DNA from: Rickettsiales bacterium
GTDB lineage: Bacteria; Pseudomonadota; Alphaproteobacteria; Rickettsiales; UBA6187
DNA length: 64,000 nucleotides
Direction: 5' to 3'
Assembly: GCA_028223895.1 (NCBI GenBank)
Contig: JAOIVE010000001.1
Span: 1 to 64,000, forward strand
Position 1 is the first letter of the stretch. The number at the start of each line of letters is the position of its first letter. This document shows positions 20,048 through 56,695 of the stretch, piece after piece. The notes beneath the pieces are model-generated. The model was not told where the DNA came from. It saw only the letters and a program-made list of their open reading frames with translations, and searched no databases. Made by a program: the position numbers and the translations under genes.

Positions 20048-20314
20048 TTATTTGACATCATTATTCTCTTTGCATTCGCAAGGATCAGATTGGCATTTTT
20101 TGCAAACACCCTTGCTGCATCCGCAGTATTTTCTTGCCGGTATAATAGCTGCTACAATTGCAATTATTCCATACCAGTACCAATCAAGATTGAGCAATGG
20201 TGGCCATAGCTTGGCAACCATCAAAACAAATGCTGCTGTACTCAGTTTTATGAGAGAAATATCATAACATTGATATCTGTTTACTATCTTATTTTTGCAT
20301 TTTTCTGGATTCAT
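20048..20314 (-). CDS. Small membrane protein with Cys cluster tail
   Basis: One or two TM then RKYCGCSKGVCKKCQSDPCEC. Confidence 0.5.
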   Translation of the reverse strand: MNPEKCKNKIVNRYQCYDISLIKLSTAAFVLMVAKLWPPLLNLDWYWYGIIAIVAAIIPARKYCGCSKGVCKKCQSDPCECKENNDVK

Positions 20315-20323
20315 AATATCATC

Positions 20324-20512
20324 CTAATCTGTGGCTAAGTTACAGCAATGTTGTTCTTTCTGTGATAGCTCTAGCATTTTGTACTCAGCAATTTTTTCTG
20401 TTTTAAGAGTAGGTGTTTTAGTATTTATCTTGATTGCTGGCACAATAACAGCATCAGTTGACTTATATTCCTTTGAGAACACTGTGTTGTTATACATATC
20501 CATCTCCACCAA
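20324..20512 (-). CDS. Microprotein, CCNLATD family
   Basis: 62 aa ending KEQHCCNLATD; paralog 55639..55797 ends KEEYCCNLATD. Confidence 0.5.
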   Translation of the reverse strand: MVEMDMYNNTVFSKEYKSTDAVIVPAIKINTKTPTLKTEKIAEYKMLELSQKEQHCCNLATD

Positions 20513-20542
20513 AGGTTGAACATAATCACAATTTACATATAC

Positions 20543-20584
20543 ATGTATCGTGTACCGTGTATCGTGTATCGTGTATCGTGTATC
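20543..20584. repeat. Heptanucleotide tandem repeat (GTGTATC), six units, four perfect
   Basis: atgtatc gtgtacc gtgtatc gtgtatc gtgtatc gtgtatc. Confidence 0.9.
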
Positions 20585-20612
20585 AGATTATACGTGGTTA
20601 TGTAATCACGCG

Positions 20613-20626
20613 TTGACAGGTATCAA
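20613..20626. promoter_or_regulatory. Fnr/FixK-type box TTGACAGGTATCAA
   Basis: 13 nt upstream of regulator ATG. Confidence 0.75.
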
Positions 20627-20639
20627 GCAGGAGACCGAT

Positions 20640-21425
20640 ATGTCAAATATTATTGAAAAGCCTAATGTAAAAGAGCTATCAGGTAATAGTGAAAGTTACA
20701 GAAATTTTCTAAAAAGCATTCCATTATTTAGCGATTTTCCTGAAGACGCAATTAGTCAGGTTTTGGGTAATGCTCGTATAAAGAAATATAATAAGAACGA
20801 GATATTATTCATGACCGGCGATAAGGCTGAAAATTTCCGCATTATTATCACCGGGTGGGCAAAATTATATCGCCAGACGCGTGATGGGCATGAAGCTATT
20901 GTTACCGTTCTTACAAATGGCGAAATGTTTGGGAATACAGCCATTATAAAAAACGGTACTCATGCCTATACGGCAGAAACAGTTGCGGATTCTATCATGT
21001 TTCTTATCCCTGCTTCATTTATGTTGCATATGTCTGAGAGCTATCAGCATTTTGATCATTTTCTGGCAAAATTTCTTGAAGGAGGTTTGGGGCAGTCAAC
21101 TCAACTTAGTATGAATATAGAACATCTTTCTCAGATGACTTCTGCACAACGGGTTGGGTGTTTTCTTTTAAGGCTTTGTTTGGGGCAGAAAGAAGGAAGT
21201 ATTTCGTTGCAACTTCCTTACGAAAAAGGCCTTGTTGCAGGGCGGCTTGGTATGACAGCGGAGACATTTTCACGCTCTTTAAGCCATTTAATAACCTATG
21301 GAGTTGAAACCGACCATTCTATTGTAACGATTCACAATATTATGCAGCTTCGCAGGTATATCTGTGAGCATTGTTCCGCAACAACACGAGAATGCCACTT
21401 AGGTGAAGATATGGATGAATATTAA
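20640..21425 (+). CDS. Crp/Fnr family transcriptional regulator
   Basis: cNMP-binding fold; HTH 'AGRLGMTAETFSRSLSHL' with E..SR recognition residues; start trimmed to 20640 because upstream codons lie in the tandem repeat. Confidence 0.85.
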   Translation: MSNIIEKPNVKELSGNSESYRNFLKSIPLFSDFPEDAISQVLGNARIKKYNKNEILFMTGDKAENFRIIITGWAKLYRQTRDGHEAIVTVLTNGEMFGNTAIIKNGTHAYTAETVADSIMFLIPASFMLHMSESYQHFDHFLAKFLEGGLGQSTQLSMNIEHLSQMTSAQRVGCFLLRLCLGQKEGSISLQLPYEKGLVAGRLGMTAETFSRSLSHLITYGVETDHSIVTIHNIMQLRRYICEHCSATTRECHLGEDMDEY

Positions 21426-53919: not shown

Positions 53920-54662
53920 CAGCGATAGCCAATAACTTACCACCCAAACAATATCCTACAGCATGTATCTTTTTGTCAGGCACGACATCCTGCGCCGCAT
54001 CAATTGCTTCGAATAACCCGCGCTTGAGATAATCATTTAAACCAACATTCCGATATTCGGCGGTGGGGTTTTTCCACGAAATCATAAATACCGTATGCCC
54101 CTTGATCCACGAGATATTTCACTAGAGAATTATGGTCAGATAAATCAAGAATGTAATATTTCATAATCCATGCCGGAACGATAAATACCGGCTCGGCATA
54201 AACATTATTAGTAATGGGTTTGTATTGAATCACCTCCAGCAACTCATTGCGGAAGATGATTTTTCCTTTTGTAATGGCAAGATTTTTTCCGACCTCGAAT
54301 TGTTCTAAACCCACTGGCTTTTCATCATTTACCAAGCAAGACATATCCTCCAACAGGTTCATCCAACCGGTGACGAGGTTTATGCCCTTTTGCTCTTGCG
54401 TTGCCTTCGTCAGTAATGGATTGGTGGGCACGAAATTGGAAGGGGCGATGGCATCGATCATCTGGCGAATGGTAAAGGATACGAGGTCAAGACTATGCGG
54501 ATTCACCCCGCGCACATGGCTCGTCGTCTGCTTCCACCAATCCCGATAAAGTAGAAATGATTGCTGGTAGACATTATAGGGAAATTGGCACAAGCCCTCT
54601 GCCTTGAACCGACGATCTGTTGGGTCGGGATTCACCGGGCATGCTGGATTATCTTGTATCAT
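53920..54662 (-). pseudogene. phaC: PHA synthase (phaC) remnant, frameshifted and truncated
   Basis: 54033..54662 carries N-terminal part, frame changes at cccc 54098-54101, then GHTVFMISWKNPTAEYRNVGLNDYLKRG...HAVGYCLGGKLLAIAAA. Confidence 0.8.
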
Positions 54663-55638: not shown

Positions 55639-55797
55639 TTAATCCGTTGCCAAATTGCAGCAATATTCCTCTTTCTTGTTGAGTTTTTTTGAATTATCAA
55701 TGTGTTTTTCAACTATCTTTAAGCTAGATTCCTTTGGAAGATTTTGCTGTATTTCCTTTATATCAGATTTCTCGATTATCCTATTGACAACACGCAT
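55639..55797 (-). CDS. Microprotein (52 aa), CCNLATD family
   Basis: MRVVNRIIEKSDIKEIQQNLPKESSLKIVEKHIDNSKKLNKKEEYCCNLATD*. Confidence 0.5.
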   Translation of the reverse strand: MRVVNRIIEKSDIKEIQQNLPKESSLKIVEKHIDNSKKLNKKEEYCCNLATD

Positions 55798-55869: not shown

Positions 55870-55883
55870 TTGATGGGTATCAA
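55870..55883. promoter_or_regulatory. Fnr/FixK-type box TTGATGGGTATCAA
   Basis: 14 nt upstream of regulator ATG. Confidence 0.75.
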
Positions 55884-55897
55884 GTGAGACAAATAAG

Positions 55898-56695
55898 ATG
55901 GAAAAACTACTTGAAAAATCGGCATCACAAGGGGTGTTACACAAATTTATGCAAAGTAAAGAAGCTTATAGAAGTTTTCTAAAACGAATGCCTTTATTTT
56001 GTGAGTTTTCTGAAACGTGCTTAAGTGAAGTTCTGGCCAATAGCCGCATTAAACACCATAAAAAAGGCGACATCCTTTTCATGACTGGTGATAATGCTCA
56101 AAACTTTCGTATTATTGTCAATGGCTGGATAAAACTTTACCGAGAAACACGTGATGGGCATGAAGCAGTTGTTTCTGTTCTTACAAATAACGAGGTTTTT
56201 GGTAAAACCGCTATTTTGAGTAAAGGAACCTACGCCTATACGGCTGAAGCAATAACAGATACGGAGATGTTGATGATTCCTGCTGCGTTTATGTTAAAAA
56301 TGGCCGAACATAAAGATGATTATGATCATTTTCTGGCAAAATTCCTTGAAGAGGAGCTAAATGACAGCAATCAGCTTGGTTTGCATGCGGAGCACCTGGG
56401 GCAAATGACCTCAGCCGAAAGAGTCGGCTGCTTTCTTCTACGCTTATGTAGTATACAGAAAGAAGGAAGCATTACGTTTCAACTTCCATATGAAAAAGCT
56501 CTGGTTGCCGGGAAGCTGGGTATGACAGCAGAAACTTTTTCACGGTCGTTAAACCAATTGATCACTCGTGGGGTAGAAACAAAAAACTCCGTTGTCACCA
56601 TTCATAATATAGAGCAACTGCGTACCCATATTTGTGAACACTGCTCCGCTACAACTCTTGAATGTCCACTTGGTGCAGAAACAGAGACCATTTAA
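55898..56695 (+). CDS. Crp/Fnr family regulator, paralog of 20640..21425
   Basis: HTH 'AGKLGMTAETFSRSLNQL'; C-term HICEHCSATTLECPLG. Confidence 0.85.
   Translation: MEKLLEKSASQGVLHKFMQSKEAYRSFLKRMPLFCEFSETCLSEVLANSRIKHHKKGDILFMTGDNAQNFRIIVNGWIKLYRETRDGHEAVVSVLTNNEVFGKTAILSKGTYAYTAEAITDTEMLMIPAAFMLKMAEHKDDYDHFLAKFLEEELNDSNQLGLHAEHLGQMTSAERVGCFLLRLCSIQKEGSITFQLPYEKALVAGKLGMTAETFSRSLNQLITRGVETKNSVVTIHNIEQLRTHICEHCSATTLECPLGAETETI

Follow-up and report, generated by a model that had tools for sequence, protein, structure and literature searches.

A rare heptanucleotide array upstream of a CRP/FNR-family regulator gene in a Rickettsiales bacterium, a possible slippage-type control element

A short tandem repeat precedes the gene of a CRP/FNR-family regulator in this Rickettsiales bacterium, and the question is whether it could act as a phase-variable switch of that gene or is a neutral product of slippage. 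The window, i.e. the whole stretch of DNA analysed, was 64,000 nucleotides long (contig JAOIVE010000001.1). The heptanucleotide array occupies positions 20543-20584, with no strand assigned, and consists of ATGTATC, GTGTACC and (GTGTATC)x4, giving four perfect units and two with one mismatch each, about six in total. The initial annotation had described six 7-bp units, the last four perfect, which ended about 55 bp before the regulator ATG and were lacking at the paralog at 55898. This description was borne out by the unit sequences, the lag-7 run, TRF and shuffles, by the position of the ATG at 20640, and by examination of the region upstream of the paralog.

The array was well above chance in the window and rare in the genome. 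An exact lag-7 run of 29 bp (20556-20584) lies inside it; simulation of 60 sequences of 64 kb produced lag-7 runs of at most 17 bp. It was the highest-scoring tandem repeat of the window (TRF score 75), and a search for three units with no more than 3 mismatches gave four matches at the array and not one in 100 shuffles. The genome background was taken from sampled stretches of 662 kb, or 46% of 1.45 Mb, in which the array was the sole lag-7 run and the only non-coding run of period 4-9 with a length of at least 21 bp. It was counted as non-coding, the ORF overlapping it being a spurious GTG extension that runs through the array. The three other runs of this kind were all in ORFs with units of 6 or 9 bp, leaving the array as the sole short tandem repeat in the sampled 662 kb with a unit that is not a multiple of 3. 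No second allele was found in the collections searched, which include no other genome of the genus.

The unit GTGTATC was single-copy in the source genome, occurring only as this array, and was not found in 343 other genomes of the order; no match to the array flanks was found in viral contigs. Elsewhere, GTGTATC arrays of 3-17 units were present in unrelated MAGs and isolates (L036-L083; Nitrospirae, Saprospiraceae, Patescibacteria, Photobacterium), several per genome in some of them, and 31 of 56 lay over an ORF of at least 100 aa compared with 82% of bases. A mobile or shared element was rejected on the spread of these 48 GTDB stretches over unrelated phyla and contexts, together with the zero count in the order. 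Nor is the array part of a dispersed heptamer family of the STRR or TAACTGA type, with many arrays of the same unit per genome, as only one array was found. The intergenic TAACTGA repeats of Beggiatoaceae are likewise short heptamer arrays near gene starts, but number 169 sets per genome (PMC4679880). The flanking inverted repeats (20533-20548 / 20590-20605, 81%) and the 7-bp direct repeat TAATCAC on either side of the array, which might have suggested an insertion, were no better than other chance repeats within the same 361 bp. Known RNA families gave nothing above chance at the locus.

The regulator (20640-21425, plus strand) has 261 aa and carries cNMP_binding (PF00027, 2.7e-19) and HTH_Crp_2 (PF13545, 2.3e-09) domains, the cyclic-nucleotide-binding fold and Crp-type helix-turn-helix of the CRP/FNR family. 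Its top NCBIfam scores were FtrB, FixK and Fnr, all far under the equivalog cut-offs, and it stayed under the cut-off of every NCBIfam equivalog; its best relatives of solved structure were cyclic-nucleotide-binding-type regulators and Dnr. It resembles FtrB, Dnr, FixK and FNR (class II, TTGAT-N4-ATCAA) in its domains, in having FNR-like recognition residues, and in the box with its spacing to the -10. The recognition helix shows E..SR, and its ETFSR segment matches the E..SR residues with which FNR recognises TTGAT. FNR has N-terminal cysteines, whereas inspection of the regulator N-terminus revealed none before the cNMP domain, so that the 4Fe-4S feature of FNR proper is absent. A C-terminal CxxCSA...EC motif, common to all five orthologs and paralogs, may form a metal or redox site. 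A Shine-Dalgarno sequence (AGGAG, 20629-20633, plus strand) was seen by inspection 6 nt before the ATG. The paralogous regulator (55898-56695, plus strand) has 66% identity.

Between the array and the regulator ATG, just before AGGAG, lies an FNR-type box, TTGACAGGTATCAA (20613-20626, no strand assigned). Pattern matching gave another, TTGATGGGTATCAA (55870-55883, no strand assigned), in the equivalent position before the paralog, and the distant orthologs of genomes G032 and G008 have a box there too. In the window 15 TTGAYNNNNRTCAA sites were counted where 0.41 would be expected, and in the whole genome 33, compared with 5 for the reversed pattern; 17 of the 33 are on the contig of the window. 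A -10-like hexamer, defined as TAnnnT with at least 4 matches to TATAAT, stands 19-24 nt from the box on one side at 12 of the 17 contig boxes (5.1 expected), a spacing close to the class II arrangement, in which the site is centred at -41.5 (PMC7349173). The boxes thus show the DNA specificity of the FNR/Dnr/FixK type, an enrichment of TTGAY-N4-RTCAA upstream of genes at class II spacing. Genes near the boxes encode a phasin, YceI, an M48 protease, a YflT-domain protein, LPG synthase, YfdX, Hsp20, CBS proteins, baeRF/host-attachment proteins, a flavodoxin-like protein and a Dps-like ferritin, a set suggestive of a regulon for survival under stress or low oxygen. From the box counts and the -10-like spacing the existence of an FNR-box regulon is well supported, and the excess of boxes suggests that the array-bearing regulator probably heads it.

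In the window the 15 boxes stand between 4333 and 62153 before a duplicated stress-gene island. In the island, a copy of the same 126-aa ORF follows each of the two CRP/FNR paralogs, and baeRF/host-attachment, Hsp20 and CBS genes are also present. On the minus strand at 54662-53708, a PhaC-like polyhydroxyalkanoate synthase is apparently split into two overlapping frames (PhaC_N match 54036-54662).

On its other side the array is flanked by a divergent ORF of 59 aa (20324-20503, minus strand), which starts with ATG at 20503 after GGTGGAG and ends in EQHCCNLATD. Homologous short divergent ORFs with the same CCNLATD-type ending adjoin the paralog (55639-55797, minus strand, 52 aa, ending EEYCCNLATD) and the G032 and G008 orthologs. 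The family (20324-20503, 55639-55797, L006, L007) has a conserved end (E)xCCNxATD, had no Pfam or NCBIfam match for the one member searched, and is probably activated via the FNR-type box. The putative -10 of the 59-aa ORF is TATAAT on the minus strand (20587-20592), 20 nt from the box; at the paralog, TATAAG stands at the same 20 nt. If the minus-strand TATAAT is a promoter, transcription of the divergent ORF would start inside the array, which would then be leader. For the regulator, inspection gave a weak candidate -10, TATACG (20589-20594, plus strand), on the upstream side of the box at 18 nt; TATAAT occupies the equivalent position, also at 18 nt, relative to the box of the paralog. With these candidate hexamers between array and box, the array would lie upstream of the core promoter of the regulator as well as in the leader of the divergent ORF. 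Measured from the box centre, the small-ORF ATG is 116.5 away at the array locus and 79.5, 95.5 and 89.5 away at the other loci; the array has thus lengthened the interval on the side opposite the regulator.

Orthologs of the regulator in the order were found in only three further genomes (G004, G032, G008), and 384 other genomes of the class gave no more at E<=1e-55. The closest, with 64% identity, belongs to G004, of the same family and another genus, and carries a different array, (AAAG)8.8, 35 bp long and ending at its ATG. This is the only run of at least four AAAG units in the 2.3-Mb G004 genome. When 30 CRP/FNR loci of the order were surveyed for repeats of at least 18 bp within 400 bp upstream, only the array-bearing regulator and the G004 ortholog had one, the 28 others none; the paralog and the two distant orthologs had no array. 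Neither a divergent small ORF nor an FNR-type box exists at the G004 locus, so the element common to both array loci is the regulator. The G004 background has about 5 other arrays in 753 kb, and chance coincidence would be roughly p = 0.01-0.1, allowing for intergenic bias and the four loci examined, which is suggestive and not proof. Different repeats before the same gene in two relatives suggest, without proving it, random tuning of the regulator by repeat slippage.

Other repeats of G004 have the form of contingency loci. Six prepilin paralogs (L154:3397-3466, L114:18952-18993, L173, L174, L175, L176), one of them with a PF07963 match, carry, between their start codons and the GFTLIEL motif, AAAGACC arrays of 2, 4, 5, 6, 8 and 10 units. 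Five of the six are in frame with one of two alternative ATG starts and the copy with six units is in frame with neither; the set looks like a phase-variable pilin repertoire. In addition, a 151-aa ORF has GTTGT x6.2 within its predicted signal peptide (L145:14440-14470), where gain or loss of one unit would break the frame. These arrays make slippage of a heptanucleotide plausible in the lineage.

The best single reading, still a tentative one at somewhat less than an even chance, is that the array is a phase-variable or rheostat element tuning the regulator. It would be a simple-sequence-repeat element in the control region common to the regulator and the divergent small gene, with slipped-strand mispairing adding or removing 7-bp units. 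With each unit, the DNA upstream of the regulator core promoter would rotate through roughly two thirds of a helical turn, and three units, 21 bp or two turns, would restore the phase; the leader length of the divergent gene would change as well. The outcome would be graded, heritable and reversible differences in regulator level between sister cells, and hence in their FNR-box regulon. The array has two of the properties of a contingency locus of simple repeats, a tandem run of short units well above chance and a place in the 5' region of a gene, ending 55 bp before the ATG next to a putative promoter. Of the phase-variable switch proposed in the initial annotation, what stood was thus a real regulator preceded in its 5' control region by an array that is rare and prone to slippage, with none at the paralog, a different array before the closest ortholog and slippage-type arrays in the prepilins of a relative. 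Its two modes of action, altered promoter spacing and altered reading frame, did not stand: no recognisable -35/-10 pair brackets the array, which would sit upstream of the core promoter, and the regulator has its own ATG and Shine-Dalgarno sequence. A -35/-10 spacing switch was rejected on the same ground, as the sole sigma-70-like pair in 20250-20750 is at 20294-20322, and shuffles give more.

Slippage control is favoured because the array is the sole non-coding short tandem repeat in 662 kb, the closest ortholog has an independent array where 28 other loci have none, the prepilin arrays of G004 show that slippage loci exist in the family, and the well-supported FNR-box regulon is joined by precedents in Haemophilus influenzae and Helicobacter pylori. 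The hmw1A/hmw2A promoter repeats of H. influenzae are also slippage-prone 7-bp tandem units upstream of a gene, but have 13-38 units instead of six and serve an adhesin instead of a transcription regulator, and their variation and expression effect are demonstrated, where those of the array are putative (PMC8262952, PMC2651432). At hmw1A the heptanucleotide array lies between two promoters and more units give less transcript (PMC8262952); in the same species a receptor gene is preceded by an AACAACC tract with 1-7 units (PMC2651432). The T-tract rheostat of H. pylori sabA acts by axial alignment; it too is a repeat beside a core promoter whose length would alter helical alignment, but is a mononucleotide tract with a measured effect (PMC4081817). 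The reading is weakened because only four units are perfect, two have decayed and no length variant was seen, because the paralog and two distant orthologs manage without an array, because the two arrays sit differently relative to their putative promoters (upstream versus leader) and so would not share a single mode of action, because the G004 coincidence is no stronger than stated above, and because no good sigma-70 promoter was recognised for the regulator in 20250-20750.

A neutral microsatellite is the main and serious rival, nearly as likely because the array is short, partly decayed and showed no length variant: it would have arisen by slippage in an intergenic gap that tolerates it and would now be decaying slowly, with the regulator under its promoter and FNR-type box only. 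Two of the six units are already degenerate, the paralog and distant orthologs lack it, the 48 unrelated GTDB stretches share no common context, and its RNA folds no better than shuffles. Against this stand the great rarity of such arrays in the source genome and the second, different array before the closest ortholog.

It is improbable that the array is a fixed leader element, the start of the divergent-ORF mRNA, in which GAUACAC repeats following a class II FNR-type promoter would be a landing site for an RNA-binding protein, as was suggested for the Beggiatoaceae repeats (PMC4679880). The minus-strand TATAAT at 20 nt from the box, with TATAAG equally spaced in the paralog, would indeed put the start inside the array. 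However, the small ORF of the paralog has no array, GTGTATC is single-copy in the genome, unlike a dispersed binding site, and the transcript ends are inferred only. A coding switch, in which translation of the array would lengthen the regulator at its N-terminus and the number of units would set the frame, is very improbable: with six units, a frame does run without a stop from GTG 20550 across the array and on into the regulator, but no Shine-Dalgarno sequence precedes 20543/20550, the internal ATG 20640 has AGGAG, and neither the orthologs nor the paralog have the extension.

Surface structures, restriction-modification systems or methyltransferases are the usual targets of variation by simple sequence repeats. 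The array is probably a promoter-region simple sequence repeat, a known kind of element, unusual in its target. It is a more doubtful proposition, held at low confidence, that a master stress regulator of the family, not a surface structure, came under slippage control via repeats arisen separately in different genera, as a bet-hedging dial on a dormancy-like regulon. Because an unrelated repeat precedes this gene in a second genus, the idea can be tested through unit counts in metagenome reads. If the array tunes the regulator, the whole stress regulon, including phasin, Hsp20, CBS proteins, Dps-like ferritin, M48 protease, YceI, LPG synthase and others, would be heterogeneous between sister cells.
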